The translations under genes were made by a program, and so were the position numbers. The notes beneath the pieces are model-generated. The model saw nothing but the letters and a program-made list of their open reading frames with translations, was not told the origin of the DNA and ran no database searches. DNA of 64,000 nt from the NCBI GenBank assembly GCA_023362775.1, contig JALMGJ010000003.1, forward strand, positions 75,811,355-75,875,354, written 5' to 3'. Positions 8,500 through 51,097 of the stretch are shown here, in pieces (position 1 is the stretch's first letter; each line of letters begins with the position of its first letter). Origin of the DNA: Charina bottae. Taxonomy: Eukaryota; Chordata; Lepidosauria; Squamata; Charinaidae.

Positions 8500-8775
8500 T
8501 ACACAGCATGTAGTTAATTCACTGCCAGAAGCTACCAAGACAGCTGCCAATTTGGACAGCTTTTAAAAGGTCTTAGACAAACGCCTGGAGAATAAGGGCA
8601 TCCAATGGCTACTGGTCATGATGGCTATTGATTACCCCAGGTACAGAGACAGTAGATCTCTCCATACCAGTTTCTGGGAACACAAACAAAGCTATTGCTC
8701 TCATGCCTGCCTTCAGAGCTTCCAGGGAGAGAATGCTGGACTCTATGGTCTTGGTTGAGTGGACGGGCTCTCTTT
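8500..8775 (+). mobile_element. Old LINE 3'-end-like remnant, host of the RTE insertion
   Basis: Words such as CACTGCCAGAAGCTACCAAG, TTTTAAAAGG, CAATGGCTACTGGTCATGATGGCTAT and AATGCTGGACTCTATGG parallel the remnant at 62336-62612, which has ACTTCAAAAAAGGTTTGG, GATGGCTATTAGCCCTGATGG and CTGCTGGACTAGATGGGCC. Both look like the same common squamate LINE-type 3' region. The RTE-like element at 8790 inserted into it. Confidence 0.5.
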
Positions 8776-8789
8776 ATCTTCTGCCATGA

Positions 8790-8912
8790 CCCACTTGCTG
8801 GATCGTCACCTTGTTGTGGTGAGTGGGCTTGTGTGTTCCCAATGAAACCTGTGAGCGAAGCCGTCGGGAGTCATGTACTCCTGGTAGGGTCACCCATGGC
8901 GGTAAGGTCCAG
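8790..8912 (+). ncRNA. Candidate HDV-like self-cleaving ribozyme at the RTE 5' end
   Basis: The first base of the element starts helix P1: CCCACT (8790-8795) with AGTGGG (8822-8827). A 2-nt joint (TG) follows, then P2: CTGGATC (8798-8804) with GGTCCAG (8906-8912), seven pairs with one G-U. P3 is CAC(C) at 8807-8810 with (G)GTG at 8818-8821, closing a 7-nt loop. The P1 3' strand follows P3 without a gap. Before the P2 3' strand comes ATGGCGGTAAG, where C8900 would be the catalytic cytosine, much like the ATGGCTAAG stretch of the antigenomic HDV ribozyme. The strand order is that of the nested double pseudoknot. P4 and P1.1 are not resolved by eye; an extra hairpin GGAGT/ACTCC occurs at 8867-8881. 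HDV-like ribozymes are known at the 5' ends of R2 and some RTE elements. Cleavage would fall between 8789 and 8790, exactly the TSD boundary. Confidence 0.6.
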
Positions 8913-9477
8913 GGGGAGGAACCAGACAAAGAACGATCCAAGAAAGTCCTCAACAGAAGAACAGGCGGAAGATAACAAAGTGTATTGTTACAATGGCTGT
9001 GAAGGCGGATGAAGGCTGCAGCAGACAAAAGGTCACCAATCGTCATGGTATCCATGCCATTGGATTAGAGCCTTTTTCTGTGAAGGTTGTGTGCTGATCG
9101 TTGTGCACCGATCTCCACACATAAAACAAATTCACGCACAGGCGTCTTCCAACCACACCAAACCCAAAGCAACCAAAAGTCACATGGCGATTGACGAATG
9201 GCAACGGGGGCAGGACTGTGAAATCCGGAAGCTCCTAGTCATGGACCAGCACATGGGCGGTGGATACGGATTCAGTCGCCCTGACTCAAGGATCGAGGCA
9301 GTTGAGTAGTTCGGCAGCTGTATCCACGTCTGAGCAGCCCTATTTAGGATCCACTCTGCTCACCCCATATGGGGAGGAGGCTAGAAAAGGTGCCCTAAAC
9401 ATAGTCTGCCTCATTTTCTCCCTGACTGGATTACCGCGACCAGTGGGGTCACCATCTAGCGGTCGTAAAAGACACAT

Positions 9478-10235
9478 GAATTTTGGAACATGGAATATAC
9501 GGACACTGCAAGACAATATGGATAGTGAATGACCTGAACGTAGGACTGCCATTATTGCAAGGGAGCTGAGACGTTTTAATATCGATATAGCAGCACTCCA
9601 AGAAACTCGAAGAGCAGGAGAAGGACAGTTGAAGGAAGAAAAAGGAGGTTATACCTTCTTTTGGAAAGGACTGCCTAAACAAGAATGACGAATACATGGG
9701 GTAGGCTTTGCTATCAAAAACGACCTTGTGAAGCTCTTGTCAGAAGTTCCCACTGGGATTAACGAACGACTCTCAACTCTGCGAATAAAACTCGCCAAAA
9801 ACCAACAGGCAACTATCCTAACTGCGTACGCACCAACACTAGATGCAGATGAGGATACAGTATCAAGGAAAAAATTTATACCCAGCTGGACACCATCTTA
9901 TCAGAGATACCAAAGGAGGATAAAATTATCCTCCTGGGCGATTTCAATGCAAGAGTTGGGCGTGACTTTGATTTGTGGTCAGGGATCATTGGGAAAGAAG
10001 GAGTTGACAATAGCAACATGAATGGAATCTTACTTCTGACTAAATGTGCAGAGCATAACCTTGTCATTACTAACACACTCTTTCGCCAGAAAAATAAATT
10101 TAAAACATCATGGAAGCACCCATGGTCGAAGCACTGGCATAGATTATGTAATTGTCCGTGCTAGAGATCGCCGTGATGTACTTCTCACCAGAGCCATGAC
10201 GAGCGCCGATGACTGCTGGACAGACCATCGATTAA
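9478..10235 (+). pseudogene. RTE-like APE-type endonuclease domain (decayed)
   Basis: The reading frame opens with MNFGTWNIRTL, the usual N-terminus of an APE-like endonuclease. Further motifs are ALQETR (9592-9609 region), HGVGFAIK (about 9696-9719), TAYAPT (about 9820), LLGDFNARVG (about 9928-9960), and a downstream D...WTDHRLI block (about 10216-10236), each of which carries the acidic or His residues of this fold. The domain nicks target DNA to prime reverse transcription. TGA stops at 9530-9532 and 9686-9688 both sit where CGA would fit, so CpG decay explains them. Frame changes occur near 9865, 10105 and beyond. Upstream of 9478 the frame stays open to about 9260, so the true start is uncertain. 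Confidence 0.8.
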
Positions 10236-12610
10236 TTCAATCCACGATGGCCATAAAGATTGTCCCTCATCGTAGGCTCCAAGGAAGAAAACCAAGGTGT
10301 AAAATGAATACACTGGCCCTTCAAGATTCTACTAAACGAGCTTGCTTTCAATCAACTCTCAAGGAACATCTGCCTATGGAACTTCCTGAAAATGTTGAGG
10401 AACACTGGATTAAATTGAAGACTTCTATTATTTCAGCCTGTGAACAAACTACCGGATACCAAACTAAGAGACATCAGGACTGGCTTGATGAGAACGATAG
10501 TGAGATTGAACATATTATTGACAAGAAAAGGAAAGCCTTCCCGATATGGCAAAAAGATACTAACTGTGCCATTAAGAAAAAAATCTACGCCAGTGCAAAG
10601 GCAGAAGTCCAAAGAAGAACCAGAGAACCTAAGAACATATGGTGGATAAAAAAAGCCCAAGAAACACAACGTTTTGCAGATGCTCATGATGCATCCCTTA
10701 CGCTCAGTAGATGGTGCTAAACTTCTAAAGGACAAAGAGTCTATTGCACTGCGCTGGAAAGAGCATTACTACAATCTCCTTAATCGTCACTCTACTGTGG
10801 CTGATGAAGTCTTCTTGCAAATCCCGCAAAAACAAATAAGAAATGAGCTTGCAGTACCCCCTAGTTTGGAGGAAGTCAGTAAAGCCACTAAACAAATGAA
10901 AAATAACAAAACTAGTGGACCTGATGGGATTCCTGCTGAAGTCTTTAAAGAAGGCGGGCCTGAACTTACACAACAACTTCATAAGCTCATCAAAAAAATC
11001 TGGATGAGGGAGGAGATTCCAGCAGACTTTAGGGATGCCATAATTATCACTCTCTTTAAAAAGGGTGATAGAACAGACTGTGGAAACTATCGAGGCATCT
11101 CCCTTCTAGCCACAGCAGGCAAAATCCTGGCAAAGATCATCGCAAACCGTCTCCTATCTGTATCAGAAGACATCCTCCCTGAAATGCAAAATGGCTTCCG
11201 CCCTTCCAGGGGAACAGTGGATATGATCTTCACTGCACGACAGCTTCAAGAAAAATGCAAGGAGCAAAACCACCCTCTGTACATGGCGTTTATTGATCTG
11301 ACTAAAGCTTTTGATGCTGTAAATCGTACTGCTCTCTGGACCATCCTTCTGAAAATCGGATGCCCTGATAAATTTGTGAACATCTTGCGGCTACTCCATG
11401 ACGACATGATGGCAACAATCCTGAATAACAATGGCTCTCAAAGCGATCCATTTAAAGTGGAATCCGGCGTTAAACAGGGATGTGTTATTGCTCCAACCTT
11501 ATTCGCTATCTTCATCGCTATGATTACACACCTTGTTGAAGAGAAACTTCCTACTGGTGTAGAAATTATATATCGAACAGATGGAAAGCTTTTTAATCTT
11601 AGTAGGCTGAAAGCAAAAAATAAGGTAATTACAACTTCTGTTATAGAACTTCAATATGCTGATGATAACGTACAGTAGTCTGTGCACACTCCGAGGAAGA
11701 TCTTCAAACTATCCTAAACATCTTTGTAGACGCATATGAAAAGCTCGGCCTCTCGATTAACATTAAAAAAACCAAAGTGCTTTACCAGCAAGTTCAAACC
11801 AATCCCTCCGCAGCGCCATCAATCCAGCTTAAAGGTGTGTCACTAGAAAATGTCGACCACTTTTCTTATCTCGGCAGCCACCTATCTACAAAAGCCGACA
11901 TTGACGCTGAAATTCAGCATCGCCTGAGCTCTGGGAGTATAGCTTTCTCCCGAATGAAGCATAGAGTATTTGAGGATCGGGACATTCGCAGGGAGACCAA
12001 AATGCTTGTTTACAAAGCCATTGTACTACCAACCCTTCTGTACGCCTGTGAAACATGGACCCTCTACAAACGCCACCTCCAACTTCTTGAAAGATTCCAT
12101 CAACGCTGCTTCTGAAAAATTCTGCAAATTACTTGGGAAGATAGGCGGACTAATGTTAGCGTATTAGAAGAAGCGAAAACCACCAGCATTGAAACAATGA
12201 TCATCCAACATCAACTTCACTGGACTGGTCATGTTGTTCGAATGCCTGACCATCGTCTTCCAAAGCAGCTACTTTACTCCCAACTTAAGAATGGAAAACG
12301 GAATATTGGTGGACAGCAAAAGAGATTCAAAGATACTCTCAAAGCTAATTTTAAAAAATGTAATATCAGCATTGAGAACTGGGAAGCCCTAACTCATGAG
12401 CGTTTCAGTTGGAGGTCAGCCTTTATTAATGGCGCTATGGACTTTGAAGAAGCACGAGTACAGGGCGAAAGGGAGAAAAGAGCTAAAAGGAAGGCACGTC
12501 AGGCAAACCCTCATCATGACCATCTCCCACCCGGAAACCTATGCCCTCATTGTGGGGGGTTGTGCGGATCCAGAATTGGCCTTTACAGCCACTTACGGAT
12601 CCACTGTTAA
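10236..12610 (+). pseudogene. RTE-like reverse transcriptase and C-terminal finger (decayed)
   Basis: A linker is followed, in the frame 10674-11678, by a full set of RT blocks: KTSGPDGIPAEVF, LFKKGDRTDCGNYRGISLL, QNGFRPSRGT, AFIDLTKAFDAV, SGVKQGCVIAPTLF and finally YADD (about 11656). A frameshift comes directly after YADD. The next segment (11777-12610) carries FSYLGSHLS, LLYACETWTLY and HWTGHVVRMPD, normal for the post-RT region of RTE-type elements, with one TGA at 12113-12115 at a likely former CGA. The end has CPHCGGLCGSRIGLYSHLRIH, a C2H2-like finger that may bind RNA or target DNA. Stop TAA at 12608-12610. Confidence 0.85.
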
Positions 12611-12677
12611 AATTTTACCTTTGGAAGACAATCTTACTCGGCTACGAGTGATCGCCAATGATGATCTTCTGCCATGA

Positions 12678-33359: not shown

Positions 33360-33425
33360 AGCCTTGTTGTTCTCTTGCATACGTTTCACTGCCAGGCTAG
33401 GCAACATCTTCAGTGAGAAAAGGGA
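33360..33425 (-). ncRNA. Hammerhead-like ribozyme core in PLE terminal region (copy C)
   Basis: CUGAAGA (complement of 33407-33413), a stem II hairpin closed by TGCC/GGCA, GAAAC (GAAA is the complement of 33384-33387), then GUA (33380-33382) and UGCAAG. The cleavage triplet is GUA rather than GUC, still allowed by the NUH rule. The CGU after GAAA keeps the self-complementary ACGU of the tiny stem III. Stem I next to the core is weaker than in copy B. Confidence 0.5.
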
Positions 33426-34405
33426 GTGGGACTTGCTCTCTGTTTATATACCATGGCTTGTCCTGCTTCTGTTGGTGGAGGTAGTGTTCTCTCCTTAGGA
33501 GTTCCTTGATTGGGCTGTTGTTTGCTGCTTGGTTGATTGACTGAGTTAATAGTTCCTTGATTAGGGTATATTGTGCTGTTTGATCTTGGTGTTAATCTTT
33601 GCATATCTGGGTGATGATTGCTGGCAAGGAGGTGTTCTGGTCTTCTGGCTTTTTTATTGTCTCTTATGAATGGTATGTAAATGTTGTTTACCTCTATGTG
33701 TCTGTTGATGGCTGCTTTGTCTGAGTGCCAAGCTTCCAGGAATTCTCCAGCATTTTTGGATTTGGCTTGGTTTAAGATGCTCACAGTTTCCCAGTTGAAA
33801 GTATAGTTGAGTCTATCCATGTGTTGTGAGATTAAGGAGTTTTCATTGTGTCTTCTGACTGCTAGTTGGTGTTCGTGGATGCGTTTTGCTAGTCTTCTGC
33901 CAGTCTGTCCTACATAGTGGCTGCTACAGTCCTTACACTGTATGTTGTAGATAACTCCTGATTTTTCTTCTTGGGCTACTGGGTCTTTTGGGTTACTTAC
34001 AATATTCTGAAGGGTTTTGGTTGGTTTATGTGCTATGGTGATGCCGTGTGGTTGTAACAGTCTATTAGTAGTTTCTGAGATGTTTCTGATGTATGGCAGT
34101 GTAATCCTTTCCATAGCTTCTGTTGGTTTTGCTGTGGTGGGTTGAGTGGTCAGGCACTTTTTGATAAAGTTGTGTGGGTATCCATTTTGCTGGAAGATGC
34201 TATATAAGTGGTCTGTTTCCTTTTTCTGGTATTCTGGGTTGCTGCAGTGCGTTTGTGCTCGTCTGAATAGTGTTCTTACACAGCTCCTCTTATGGGAGGT
34301 TGGGCTATTGCTTTGGTAGTGGAGCACTTGGTTAGTGTGGGTAGATTTCCGGTAGACTTGTGTTTCTAGAATGCCCTCATTTCCTCTACTGATGAGGATG
34401 TCCAA
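33410..34405 (-). pseudogene. PLE GIY-YIG endonuclease region, partial ORF
   Basis: An open frame of 331 codons, nearly identical in plan to 1784-2797: DILISRGNEGILETQ at the start, GVIYNIQCKDCSSHYVGQTGRRL at about residue 150, and a Q/T/P-rich tail. It lacks seven residues in the tail (a 21-bp gap relative to copy B). The upstream frame with the RT (34386-34610) is separated by a 5-bp deletion relative to copy B near 34410 that breaks the frame. Confidence 0.85.
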
Positions 34406-34605
34406 GAAGTGTGTTGTTGTTTTCTTCTTCCCTTGTGAATTTTATTCCTTTGAAGATGTTGTTGATAGTTTCATGTGTTTCTTCCAGTTGTTCCTTTTTT
34501 ATTATGACGGTGTCATCTACATACCGGATCCATACTTTGGGTTGTATACGTGGGAGTGCTATGCTTTCTAGACGTTGCATTACAATCTCTGCTATGAGTC
34601 CTGAG
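34386..34605 (-). pseudogene. PLE reverse transcriptase fragment with YVDD box
   Basis: The frame reads SGLIAEIVMQRLESIALP, KVWIRYVDDTVIIKKEQLEETHETINNIFKGIKFT. YVDD is the RT catalytic pair, and the following lysine-rich helix is typical of PLE RT. The domain is cut 5' of SGLIAEI, so fingers and most of the palm are missing. The open frame goes on to 34727, but I judge the part beyond 34605 to be flank. Confidence 0.8.
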
Positions 34606-45213: not shown

Positions 45214-46547
45214 CTAGATTAGTTTTTTAAAGATTCTTTTAACTAAAAGCAGTACAGTTTTCCCTTCAGCCTGTATCAAGTCTTTTTTTTTCATATATTT
45301 TATTGAGTTTTAAATATACATAGATAAAAGTTGAAAATGAAAAAGAAATACAAATGCAAATACAAATACAAATACAAATACAAATCAAAGAAAGAAGAGA
45401 AAAAGTGTAGTAAAGCAAAGAAAAAAAGAGAAAGATGAAACATAGAAATTAGTCAACTTCCGATTTATCTCTGGTCTTAGTAATTTAAAGAATTTATCTT
45501 ACATGCTAGATCTATATATAACATTGAAAAACATTTCCTGTCTAATATATCAATTTATATATATTTTAATCTTCAAATCCCCATATAAGCTTTGCCCGTC
45601 CTGCGTTTTGCAAATAATCCATTAATGGCTTCCACTCTTTAAGAAAGTAGTAATTTGAATTTTCTTTTAATAAACATGTCAATTTATCATTTTCTGCCAT
45701 ATCCATCACTTTTAACATCCAATCTTGTATCGTAGGTATAATCTGATTTTTCCAATTTTGTGCATATACAAGTCTCGCTGCTATAATCATATATTGCATA
45801 ATTCTTGTATATTGTTTTCCTATTTGTTCTTCTGATATTCCCAATAGAAATAGTTCTGGTTTGAATGGAACTCGAATTTGTAAAATATTTTGCATCAATG
45901 AATGTATCTGAGTCCAAAATTTCTTTGCAATCTCACATGTCCACCACATATGGTAAAATGACCCCTCTTTTTTTTTACATTTCCAACACAAGTTGGAAAC
46001 ATTCCCATACATTTTAGCTAGTTTTTGTGGGGTCATATACCATCTGTACATCATCTTATAGAAATTTTCCTTCAAATTATAACACAAAGTAAATTTTAGT
46101 CCTTTAGTCCACATATCTTCCCATTGTTGCATTTGGATATTATGACCAATATTTTTTGCCCATTTGATCATGCAATCTTTAACTTGTTCCTCTACCATTT
46201 CACCTTTTAACAATAATTTATACATTTTAGCTATTAAATGATCATCTGTCTCACATAGTTGTATCTCAAATTCCGATTTGGTTTGTTCAAATTCAAATTC
46301 CTTTTTATCTGATTTAAATTTTTCTACAAGTTGCATGTAAGAAAGCCATTGAAAGGTATATCCTTCTAAAGCCAATTCTTCTTTTGATTTGGTTTTATAT
46401 TGTCCTTGTTCTTTTTTAAAAAAGTCTTTATAGGTCAGCCATTTGTCTTTAGCTCTTACTTCTGTTCTATGAAATGCTTCTTGTGTGGAAATCCATAAAG
46501 GTCTTTTATAACATAAAGTTAGTTTATATTTATTCCAAATTCTTAAC

Positions 46548-46916
46548 AAAGACCTTCTAGGGAGTCTTTGGTGCTCTCTGAGCCTTGTTGTTTTCATGCA
46601 GACGTTTCATTGCCAGGCTAGGCAACATCTTCAGTGCGAAAAGGGAGTGGAACTTGCTGTCTGTTTATATACCCTGGCTTGTCCTGCCTGTGTTGGTGGG
46701 GGTCTTGTACTCTCCTTGGTAGTTCCTTGATTGGGCTGTTGTGTGCTGTTTGGGTGATTGACTGAGTTAATAGTTCCTTGATTAAGGTCTATTGTGTTGA
46801 TTGATTGCTCCTCTGCTGCTAATCTTGCTGTGAATCTATGCATATCTTGTTGTTGATTGCTAGCCCAGGGGTGTTCTGGTCTTCTGGCTATTCTATTGTC
46901 TCTTAAAGACCTTCTA
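46548..46916 (-). mobile_element. Short PLE insertion in L1 ORF2 with 12-bp TSD (copy D)
   Basis: TSD AAAGACCTTCTA at 46548-46559 and 46905-46916. The 345-bp insertion holds the end of the GIY-YIG protein (RIARRPEHPWASN onward, ending at 46631) and the terminal block. Its fusion to the L1 frame makes the chimeric open frame 46631-47647, which is not a real gene. Confidence 0.93.
46588..46645 (-). ncRNA. Hammerhead-like ribozyme core in PLE copy D
   Basis: CUGAAGA (complement of 46628-46634), TGCC/GGCA stem II, GAAAC (GAAA is the complement of 46605-46608), GUC (46601-46603) and UGCAUG. GCA/UGC closes stem I next to the core. This copy has the full set of core bases, including the ACGU palindrome of the tiny stem III. 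Confidence 0.55.
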
Positions 46917-47621
46917 ATATAATGATTTTTAAAGTCCACATTAACTTTCACTTTGTCATACCACAAATACCCATGCCATCCATATCTTAATTCATGACCC
47001 TCCAAGTTCAATAATTTTTCATTTTTCAGAACTATCCATTCTTTAATCCATACCAAGCAACAAGCAGCATAATATAATTTCAGTTCCGGTAGACCTAGTC
47101 CACCTCTTTCTTTTGAATCTTGTAAAATTTTATATTTTATTCTTGGTTTTTTCCCTTGCCAAATAAACTTAGAAATATCTCGCTGCCATTGTTTGAAGGG
47201 TTCTTCTGATGCCAATAAAGGTAATGTTTGAAAAAGATATAAAATTCTTGGCAAAATATTCATTTTAATTGCTGAAATTCTACCTAGTAATGATAGTTGT
47301 AATTTTTCCCATTGATCCAAGTCTTTTTTAATATCTATCCAAAGCGGAATATAGTTATTCTTAAACAACTTAACATTTTTAGTTGTTAAATATACTCCCA
47401 AGTATTTTACTTTTTCTTCCATTGAGTATCCCATTATTTCTTTCAATTTCTCTTGTTGATGATGGTCCATGTTTTTGGTCAAAACTTTTGTTTTCTGTAG
47501 ATTCACTTTAAACCCTGCTAACGACCCAAAGTCTTTCAATTTCTGTATCAATAGTTCAATTCCATCTAGTGGATTCTCCAAAGTAAAGACTAAGTCGTCA
47601 GCAAAGGCTCTTAATTTATAA

Positions 47622-47746
47622 ACTTCTTTTTTCATCATCATTGGCAATCACTCGTAGCGGACTAATGTTAGCGTATTAGAAGAAGCGAAAACCACCAGCA
47701 TTGAAACAATGATCATCCAACATCAACTTTGCTGGACTTCTTTTTT
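47622..47746 (-). mobile_element. RTE-like fragment with inverted 5' part (twin priming), 11-bp TSD
   Basis: TSD ACTTCTTTTTT at 47622-47632 and 47736-47746. The insert's left 25 bp (47634-47658) are the complement of the RTE 3' end at 12641-12665, with one mismatch. Its right 77 bp (47659-47735) are in direct orientation and match 12148-12224 with two or three changes. This opposite orientation of the two parts is what twin priming produces. Confidence 0.9.
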
Positions 47747-48463
47747 AACCTTAATACCATGGATACCTTCATCTTGTCTAACATCTCTCAGTAAAACCTC
47801 TAATACCAATATAAACAAAAGTGGAGATAATGGACAACCTTGTCTTGTACCTTTTTGAATTTCACATGGTTTACTAAATTCTCCATTAACAATTATTTTT
47901 GCAAATTGGGGAGTATATATTGATTTGATCCACTTAGTAAAATTTCCTCCAAAATTCATATTTTCCAATACTTTAAACAAAAAAGGCCAATTTAAATTAT
48001 CAAAGGCTTTTTCAGCATCTATAAATATCAAGGCAGCTTGTTTTTCATAGTGTTGTTCCAAGTATTCCAGTATATCTAATATATTTCGGACATTGTCTCG
48101 GATCTGTCTCTTAGGTAAAAATCCTGCTTGATCTTGATGAATAAAGTTTTTAAGAATATTTTTCATTCTTTCTGCCAATATAGTTGTAAATATCTTATAG
48201 TCGTTATTCAATAAAGATATTGGTCTATAATTCTTAGTTAAAGTCAAATCTTGTTGTTCTTTAGGGATCAATGTTATATGCGCTTCTTTCCAAGTCTCTG
48301 GCATTGTTCCTGTTTCCAAAATTGAATTCATAGTCTCCTGCAAAGGTAGACATAATTCATCCTCGAAGCATTTATAGTAAGCTGCTGACAGGCCATCCAG
48401 TCCTGGTGCTTTTCCACTACTAATTTTCTTAAAGGCCTTTACCATTTCCTCTGTTGTTATAGG

Positions 48464-48837
48464 ATTATTTAGTATTTTTTTTTAATTTTTATTATTGTAT
48501 TTATACCCCGCCTATCCCCTCCCTAACGGAGGACTCTAGGCGGCTTACATACATATTGATTACATTTCATTATACATACATTTTAAATTATACAATTAAC
48601 CGCGCATTAAGGGAAGGGGTAAGGGAACCGACTCATCCATGACTACAAGTTCCACAATGCCTTGCGTCAGAGCCGGCTGCCGACGTCCTGTAGATGGAGC
48701 TGTTCTTCCGGGATCCGTCGTACCACCGCATTCCAAGATCTTCCATTTGTTGGGCGACCCCCGACAGGACGGCAGCAAATTCTCCCACTTAAGGTGATAC
48801 CCATTTATCTACTCGCAAAGCTTTCGAACTATTATTT
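48464..48837 (-). mobile_element. SINE-like insertion in L1 ORF2
   Basis: The minimal TSD is ATTATTT at 48464-48470 and 48831-48837. The insert (48471-48830) has a T-rich left end (minus-strand poly(A)), then TACCCCGCCTATCCCC and GACTCTAGGCGGCTTACA as in the 3' end of CR1/L2-type LINEs, and at its right end GATACCCATTTATCTACTCGCAAAGC, which resembles the central body of the SINE of 5739. It may be a composite SINE using a LINE-derived tail. Family not named. Confidence 0.65.
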
Positions 48838-50181
48838 CGAAGCATTAATCTTTGTTGATCATTAAGAACAGTTAATTTCTGTTTACTCAGATAATCATCA
48901 ATGTCAATTAAATTAACTTCTTGTTTTTTATATAATTTTGAATAATAATCATGAAAAGCTTCTTGTATATCTATATTATTCACCATAACTTTCCCTTCAT
49001 GTTGTATATTAGAAATTAGGTTCTTTTGTCTTTGTTTCCGCAATTTATAAGCCAACCATCTACCTGGTTTATTAGCATATTCAAAATATTTTTCATTTTA
49101 AATTTCATTTGAGTCTCTATCTCTTGTGTCAATATCATTGATATTTGTTTTTGTAAAAATTTAATTTGAGTAAGCAAAGTATCGTCCATTGGCTTATCTC
49201 TTAAACATGTTTCTTTACTTTTTATTTCATCTAAAATCAGTTGAATTCTCTCTTGTTTCTTTTTCCTCATCTGAGCATTATATTGGAATAAATAACCCCT
49301 CATATATGCTTTGCTGGCATCCCATACAGTCTGAATATTGGTGCCTTTATCTGAATTCAGTTGAAAGTATTCCCTTAATTTTTTTTTGCATGTATCAACT
49401 ATCTCATTTTTCCAAAATATTGACTCATTTAGTCTCCATCTGAATACATTCCGTTTTCCTTTAACAGTCAACATTACTGGATTATGATCTGAAAGAGTCT
49501 TGGGTAATATTTCAACTTTACTAACGTCCATCATTAAACTTTTTTATATTAAAATCATATCTATTCTGGAATATGATTTAAATCTCTCTGAATAGTACGT
49601 ATATTCTCTGGAAGTCCCATTCATGAATCTCCAAATGTCTTGTAAATCCAACATTTCTTTTAAGTCAAAAAATGTTTGTGGCAATTTTCCCTGTGTATAC
49701 TTCACTTCTTTTTGTGAGTGTCTATCCATCTTAGGGTAGATTACCCCATTCCAATCACCCATGAAACACCAATTTTCATAGGTTTGGTCCAAAAGTTTAT
49801 CCATCAAATTTTTATAAAATATTCCTTTGTCCATATTCGGTGCATAAAGTCCAACAACCAGTGTTTTAGTTCCTTGTATATTAATTTCAACTGCAACATA
49901 ACGACCTTCATCATCAGTTAATACCAATTTTGGGTTTAACTTTGGTTGTATATATAAAACTACCCCCTTCGTTTTTTTATTTCCGGCCGAAATGAATTCT
50001 TCTCCAAATTGTTTTTGAATCAGATATTTAGTATCTTTTTTACAAATATGAGTCTCTTGTAAACAAATTATGTCCAATCTCAATTTTTTCAAAAAATGAA
50101 AAATCTTTCTTCTTTTCTGTGGGGCGTTATCACCATTAATATTCCATGTCAAATATTTGTAATCCATAAATGTTTTGATAA

Positions 50182-51097
50182 TTAAAATCCCTTTTTCAAG
50201 TCCAGACCTGCAGCTCCCATCTCAGATAAGTCTTCATTCCTCTTTTTGTCTCTTGATGTCTCTCCTCCTTCTTCCAAGTCTCCAGATGGCACACCCATTT
50301 CTGTCTTATATTTTTCTAAAAATGCTTTTGCTTTTAAAATGGAAGTTATTCTGAACCTCTGCCCTTTGAACGTAAAAGATACACCTTCTAGTTTCTCCCA
50401 TCTAAATGGGATATTGTGTTGTTTTAATTTGTCTGTAAGGAAGGAGTAATCTCTTCTTTTCCTTAATATTCTCAAAGGTATTTCTTTTAATACAATTACT
50501 TCTTTCCCTTCTATATTTAACCTATTATTATAATGTTTCTTCAAAATTTGCTCTTTTACCACTTTTCTCACAAAATATATCAATATGTCTCTAGGAACTT
50601 TATTTTCTCTAGCATAACGTGAATTCACTCTAAAAAATTTATCTATTTCCAAATCTAAGTCTTGTTCTTTTATCTCTAAAAATTTAGCCAATACAGAAAT
50701 AATCCTTTCTCTTGCATCTTCATTTGCTTGCTCAGGGACTGCTCTCAATCTCAAAATATGTTCCTTCTCTCTCATTTCTGCTAATGCTGTAATATCTAAA
50801 TTGTGTTCAATTTCTTTGGTAGCATGTTCTGATTTAGTCTCTAATTTTTGTATCTGACCTTGCATATCTTTGTTCTCCTGACAGAGAGTTCACAACTTCC
50901 TTAACTGTTTGTACTTCTTTTTTAAATTCATGTTTTATCTCCTGGGTAATTTCTTTTTTCATGTCTTCCATCTTCTTATCCATCTTTTTATCTAAAGATG
51001 CAATTTGTTCTTCCATCTGCTTATTTTGTTGACCCAAATTAGTTGATGAATCCTCCACTTTCTTATTTAATGCTGCAATTGCTTCAAGGATTTTTCA
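50182..51097 (-). pseudogene. L1 ORF1 (RNA-binding chaperone), N-terminally truncated
   Basis: The first visible residues (KILEAIAALNKKVEDSS, from 51097) are already inside the coiled coil: heptad-rich KKMDKKMEDMKKEITQEIKHEFKKEVQTV. A frameshift near 50870 joins frame 51058-50834 to frame 50865-50182. Then come the RRM-like region (HILRLRAVPEQANEDARERI) and the C-terminal domain (RDILIYFVRKVVKEQILKKH, FRWEKLEGVSFTFKGQRFRI). ORF1p trimers bind the L1 RNA. The stop lies 14 bp before ORF2, a normal L1 spacing. Confidence 0.85.

Follow-up and report, generated by a model that had tools for sequence, protein, structure and literature searches.

Ribozymes of R4, L1, RTE, and Drosophila R2 elements cut at the 5′ junction of the element (PMC3774820). 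The R2 ribozymes are HDV-like and have the same nested pseudoknot layout that we describe below; they cleave where P1 begins and have a cytosine in J4/2. R2 targets the 28S rRNA gene, and in most of the species studied its ribozyme cuts 9 to 36 nt upstream, in 28S sequence (PMC3774820). In contrast, the element studied here is found at scattered sites and carries the whole fold inside it. RTE elements, too, have HDV-like ribozymes (Ruminski et al. 2011, via PMC3774820); like our candidate they belong to RTE-type elements, and they are reported to cleave at the element 5′ end, where cleavage is predicted here. The Pr77 ribozyme of the trypanosomatid L1Tc/ingi elements is likewise a 5′-terminal HDV-like ribozyme of a LINE, with C as the first nucleotide in several cases (PMC4035085), and it doubles as a promoter (PMC8256844); Pr77 constructs are numbered 78 to 96 (PMC4035085), which we take as nucleotides, whereas the fold described here extends over ~151 nt and includes a large P4 domain. 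The layout that we apply comes from PMC4908430, in which P1 of HDV-like ribozymes has six or seven pairs and starts at the cleavage site, and P1.1 has one or two pairs; the catalytic cytosine is the first base of J4/2, following P4 (PMC10879173). P2 forms a pseudoknot with P1 and has some seven pairs. A short P3 is stacked on P2, and in its loop, L3, a conserved G pairs with a U (PMC3774820). Among the literature matches listed, drawn mainly from freely available papers, none describes a vertebrate RTE element with an HDV-like ribozyme, and an earlier description is possible.

The window, by which we mean the whole 64,000-nt stretch of Charina bottae DNA analyzed here, contains a non-LTR retrotransposon at 8790–12663 on the forward strand, which fills the full span between two copies of a target-site duplication (TSD; ATCTTCTGCCATGA) at 8776–8789 and 12664–12677. 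This 14-nt repeat is exact and has just two occurrences in the window, one at each end of the element, and it bears out the original prediction that the TSD fixes the first base of the element at 8790. The element is probably RTE-like, a label taken from that prediction and from the TSDs. Its coding frame is broken in the window copy and split into several frames: an open piece of reverse transcriptase at 10650–11675 (+ strand; Pfam RVT_1, 5e-27), its continuation in another frame at 11669–12112 (+ strand; RVT_1 at 21.5 bits, below the 29.6 cut-off), and a C-terminal open piece at 12116–12607 (+ strand) that has no Pfam family and ends, by eye, in a Cys/His motif. Elsewhere in the genome many copies have uninterrupted frames of 1,140 amino acids, and the family is therefore young. 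A 958-amino-acid frame in one copy (L050) matches RVT_1 at 3.3e-38 and Exo_endo_phos_2 at 20.8 bits, below the 27.4 cut-off. The two closest reverse transcriptase homologues, among the best 120 of 2,240 matches, are from Anolis carolinensis (84–85% over 59–64% of the query); protein relatives are also present in coelacanth and fish. Short ATG or AATG repeats of variable length precede the TSD at the 3′ ends (12655–12663 in the window copy; copies L032–L050). A fragment of the same family lies at 47634–47738 and consists of 82 bases at 97.6% identity to 12145–12226 with an inverted 32-base match to 12634–12665 beside them; the arrangement resembles what a 5′-inverted (twin-primed) insertion would leave.

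An HDV-type nested pseudoknot layout begins on the TSD-bounded base 8790. The P1 5′ strand CCCACTT (8790–8796) pairs with GAGTGGG (8821–8827), and cleavage is predicted directly before 8790. The six pairs originally proposed (CCCACT at 8790–8795 with AGTGGG at 8822–8827) are confirmed at those coordinates, and seven are possible from the TSD boundary onwards; the seventh is a T8796–G8821 wobble in the window copy and C–G in 20 of 31 copies. A 2-nt J1/2 leads to the P2 5′ strand (TGGATCGT, 8799–8806); a J1/2 this short speaks against the candidate, as a mosquito ribozyme with a 1-nt spacer had little activity and 3- and 7-nt spacers gave more (PMC4908430). The partner that we prefer for the P2 5′ strand is ACGATCCA at 8933–8940, giving eight Watson-Crick pairs. 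P2 and P3 are separated by 1 nt. The P3 hairpin predicted at 8807–8821 is present in a corrected form, with ACC (8808–8810) and GGT (8818–8820) as its strands: it includes an extra C8810–G8818 pair, which leaves a 7-nt L3 (UUGUUGU, 8811–8817), and a possible fourth pair, C8807–G8821, would cost the last pair of P1. In this loop U stands first and G sixth, which we take to be the important positions. An L3 G paired to an L3 U is counted as important in HDV-like ribozymes (PMC3774820). P1.1 has one possible pair, G8813–C8828. The region from C8828 to 8926 comprises this P1.1 base and a large P4 domain, whose arms UUCC (8836–8839) and GGAA (8918–8921) pair when the majority sequence is folded freely and whose details near C8927 vary between folds. 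J4/2 (CAAAGA, 8927–8932) starts with the candidate catalytic cytosine, C8927, which is unchanged in 31 of 31 copies and adjoins a weak part of P4.

We consider that 8790–8940 encodes, with good probability, an HDV-like self-cleaving ribozyme, and that this ribozyme sets where the members of a young RTE-like LINE family begin. The candidate is a likely member of the HDV-like retrotransposon ribozymes, a class already known, to which it is assigned on its layout. Support for an HDV-like fold that begins exactly where the element does comes from the TSDs, from a 5′ end common to many copies, from the rarity of descriptor matches, and from a second family of this genome that has the same layout at its own 5′ edge. 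The original prediction of such a fold stands in its starting base, P1, P3, and overall layout, but its P2 3′ strand and its catalytic cytosine are probably wrong.

An initial search of the 1.80-Gb genome with the first 311 bases as query turned up 770 candidates, and 40 of them were scored; the scored search yielded 30 loci, and 20 of these places were taken again with 4.5–4.9 kb each. Of 31 distinct copies (the window copy, L002–L030, and L094), 30 carry C at base 1 and L003 carries A, and the flanks are unrelated; with the exception of L094, these are the best matches to a query beginning at base 1, and the set is therefore biased to complete copies. A second query lacking the first 11 bases found 25 places, and of the 14 taken (12 lower-ranked and two of the top 12), eight copies start at base 1 and four start further in (L118, L122, L129, and L131). 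The other two of the 14, L120 and L128, start with CCCCTCG instead of CCCACTCG, and may form a minor sublineage whose P1 has changed.

TSDs were surveyed in 21 young-family copies, some of them internally shortened. Sixteen have a TSD of at least 9 nt and five have no clear TSD; among the 16, two are ambiguous because of simple repeats (L041 and L044) and two lack an anchored element 3′ end (L043 and L046). The TSD ends at base 1 in ten copies, at −1 in three, and at +1 or +2 in another three, where target bases match the element. The base before base 1 is T in 16 of the 31 copies and G in two; where the TSD closes in T (L034, L040, L046, and L050) the T is present in both TSD copies, so that it belongs to the target sequence. 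Counted by eye, the TSD starts with A in 12 of the 16, and T precedes in 11 of those 12. TSDs of reptilian Bov-B elements, which belong to the RTE clade, also start with A after T, but the 3′ tail of Bov-B is CAA and here it is ATG- or AATG-like; the word ribozyme is absent from the Bov-B paper (PMC13295347).

Sequence variation within the young family is slight. P1 occurs as CTCACTC, CTCACTT, CCCACTT, and CCCACTC, each with seven pairs when wobbles are counted; L003 is without the first P1 pair, and a change in L022 breaks one pair of P3. P2 decays in older copies, with G8805 changed to A in L119, L120, L122, and L123, and C8934 changed to T in L129. No stem pair is changed on both sides in young-family copies, which are nearly identical and have few, one-sided changes.

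Queries of the same genome with other reverse transcriptases led to one more family whose 5′ end could be read. Two copies of this older relative (L097 and L098) were reached with proteins P0075 and P0088; one other match has upstream DNA without a recognizable 5′ end, and the remaining matches listed are of the young family. The 5′ UTR near the coding frame is 77–83% identical to that of the window copy over 88–89 bases, and the reverse transcriptases of the two families have 69–73% versus 48–49% identity to the same turtle query. When the older-family 5′ stretch was used as query, 93 candidates came up; 40 places were scored and 20 copies aligned. A common left edge (GGGGTGTATGGGGTGTC) is reached by 19 of the 20 copies, the exception being L104. 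Its first base is G in 15 copies (by eye; mostly 5 to 18 flank bases), and T precedes it in 12 of the 19 (also by eye), so that the edge may lie one base earlier. An alternative start at GTGGGG was dropped, as the bases upstream of it put the edge further left.

The majority sequence of the older family can be folded into the same layout. Its P1, GGGGUGU/ACACCCC, uses the sole 7-base partner in 345 nt, which lies ~140 nt from the first bases; P2 is CUCUCACCUG/CAGGUGAGGG, P3 is GGC/GCC, and P1.1 is CC/GG, followed by a P4 hairpin and C-UAAA. There are 95–98 nt between P1 and P2, and L3 is 28 nt, with room for a further hairpin; a long J1/2 is shared with several R2 ribozymes (PMC3774820). We examined pairing in 17 copies, leaving out L098, which lies across two loci, and L104 and L116 (missed by two end anchors), and dropping a second, spurious L097 match. 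Of 461 cells, 92.8% have the named pair intact, compared with 32.5–51.4% when slid by 1–3 columns, and the two pairs of P1.1 in 92.9% of cells; shuffles reach 92.8% pairing in 11 of 500 trials and the covariation score in four of 500. Both sides are changed in a single pair of P1 and in none of P2. An apparent covariation in P4 was discounted, as CpG decay may explain the changes. Because the structure was read from the majority of the same sequences, and because CpG decay can mimic paired changes, we take these values as support, not as proof. Rfam gave 12 weak matches on the 20 older-family loci, none of which involves an HDV family. At its 5′ ends (L097, L098–L099, and L100–L117) the older family has the P1 strand GGGGTGT twice, 9 bases apart, and this doubling may mirror a shift of the cleavage site as proposed for R2 (PMC3774820). 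We lean, by a small degree, towards the view that both RTE-like families in this one genome, whose ribozyme sequences are unlike, set their 5′ ends by HDV-like ribozymes.

Folded freely, the 156-nt majority sequence forms P2 (with the 8933–8940 arm), P3, and a long P4, leaves the P1 3′ strand single except for one base, and pairs C8927 with G8831; the window copy forms a competing 5′ hairpin, 8790–8800/8817–8827 (−50.1). As a separate duplex, P1 has −8.3 kcal/mol in the majority sequence and −9.7 kcal/mol in the window copy. The presence of this hairpin in the most stable predicted structure of the window copy fits a reading in which the 5′ region is a plain hairpin, or another cis-element that serves transcription, translation, or the binding of an RNP, and in which an internal promoter, not cleavage, fixes the 5′ end; a fixed transcription start, too, would produce a common first base. 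A plain hairpin, however, predicts neither the downstream P2 partner nor the adjoining C-AAA, and the distance of ~140 nt to the older-family P1 partner means that there is no local hairpin in that family. Capped transcription starts often leave an extra leading G, which is not typical here, with G before base 1 in two of 31 copies. We regard this reading as unlikely.

The complementarity could also be a chance feature of the 5′ UTR without function, and descriptor scans speak to this directly. A loose descriptor following the originally predicted layout matches 18 of 127,600 starts on both window strands, four of them at 8790–8793, in agreement with the expectation that a fold lying on the TSD boundary has a low chance, and the descriptor search that had been suggested thus has its match at 8790. 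A strict descriptor, with a Watson-Crick P2 and C-N-A-A, which we take to be the HDV-like catalytic-cytosine motif, matches only 8790/8791 within the two strands of the window; without C-N-A-A it additionally matches 1820/1821 of the reverse strand. On random background the strict form has no match in ~1.02 million starts with C-N-A-A and 12 without it, chance rates that flatter the fit because the settings were picked after the 8933–8940 arm had been seen. A wide descriptor, which allows long loops and whose settings were chosen after the folds of both families had been seen, matches 68 of 299,700 and 57 of 299,700 random starts, 19 of 63,700 starts on the forward strand of the window, and, of 640 starts in the 5′ UTR of the window copy, start 1 only. 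Taken individually, 26 of 45 young copies and four of 17 older-family copies match it. Among the 19 young copies that fail, 11 are truncated or changed and eight begin with CTCACTT, which has two P1 wobbles excluded by rule. The older-family consensus matches at base 1, and its doubled GGGGTGT accounts for the matches at starts 1, 9, and 10 of 285. Chance matches to wide descriptors thus do occur, and covariation is lacking; yet base 1 of both families fits the wide descriptor, something expected by chance in 2–3 of 10,000 starts for each, albeit with settings made post hoc, and we think a chance origin quite improbable.

The position of the P2 3′ strand and of the catalytic cytosine can be weighed by constrained folding, in which both P1 strands and the candidate catalytic cytosine were kept single. 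Originally, P2 was predicted to pair CTGGATC (8798–8804) with GGTCCAG (8906–8912), with C8900 as the catalytic base. This complementarity is real, comprising seven pairs (one a G–U wobble) in the correct order, and C8900 does precede GGTAA. The 8933–8940 arm emerged from a wide scan built on that same layout and sits 27 nt beyond the earlier arm, outside the coordinates first given. With the 8933–8940 arm the core folds at −47.7 kcal/mol in the majority sequence and at −44.3 kcal/mol in the window copy; for the earlier arm the values are −34.8 and −32.2 kcal/mol, a difference of 12–13 kcal/mol. Moreover, GGTAA provides no A at +2 and +3 from C8900, whereas the second family has C-UAAA. We therefore judge that 8906–8912 is not the working arm and that C8927 is better placed than C8900, which now falls inside the P4 domain; an HDV-like ribozyme built on the earlier arm and C8900 is very doubtful.

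In Rfam there were no matches at gathering scores over the whole window and none to any family up to E 10 in 8700–9000, and the suggested search with the Rfam HDV models therefore gave no HDV match; the large P4 domain and the unlike sequence of an HDV-like ribozyme may be the reason. Rfam includes twister models, and a twister core likewise had no match up to E 10 in 8700–9000. A ribozyme of another class, namely the truncated twister motif noted at the 5′ ends of RTE-superfamily elements as work in preparation (PMC7761336), can be given hardly any weight, as no family matches in that interval and the element and the fold share their first base, as predicted for HDV-type cleavage.

Wider searches were made for the element and its 5′ region. 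Protein-guided scans, two on viral contigs and one on contigs from prokaryote genomes, brought up no relative, and a protein-frame search of its 5′ UTR gave no candidate. DNA-pattern matches across species (0, 2, and 41 stretches) were read by eye as chance matches. The window also contains other elements. Two similar long frames lie on the reverse strand at 33413–34441, which matches GIY-YIG weakly (20.7 bits, below the 22.6 cut-off), and at 1784–2971, which does not match; by eye, and from their motif, we presume that they are Penelope-like elements. An element at 45566–50889 on the reverse strand, L1-like by eye, is in several frames, with an Exo_endo_phos match (5e-11) at 49547–50221 and no Pfam family at 45569–46606.

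If the preferred reading, an HDV-like ribozyme at 8790–8940, is correct, a read-through transcript would fold into the ribozyme, and C8927 would help to cut it just before base 8790. This would release an RNA with an exact, uncapped start, and reverse transcription to that exact end at a new site would copy the ribozyme along with the element. By analogy, the ribozyme may also aid the start of translation or RNA stability.

The ribozyme would then account for the exact 5′ ends of the young family, and a vertebrate RTE-like family that is still young would join those LINEs whose RNA is trimmed by HDV-like ribozymes. Its many near-identical copies would provide material for learning how such ribozymes aid the spread of LINEs beyond the rRNA genes. 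If both families use such ribozymes, the ribozyme would be an old shared part of a vertebrate RTE-like lineage, with one version having a 28-nt L3, an extra hairpin, and a doubled P1 5′ strand.
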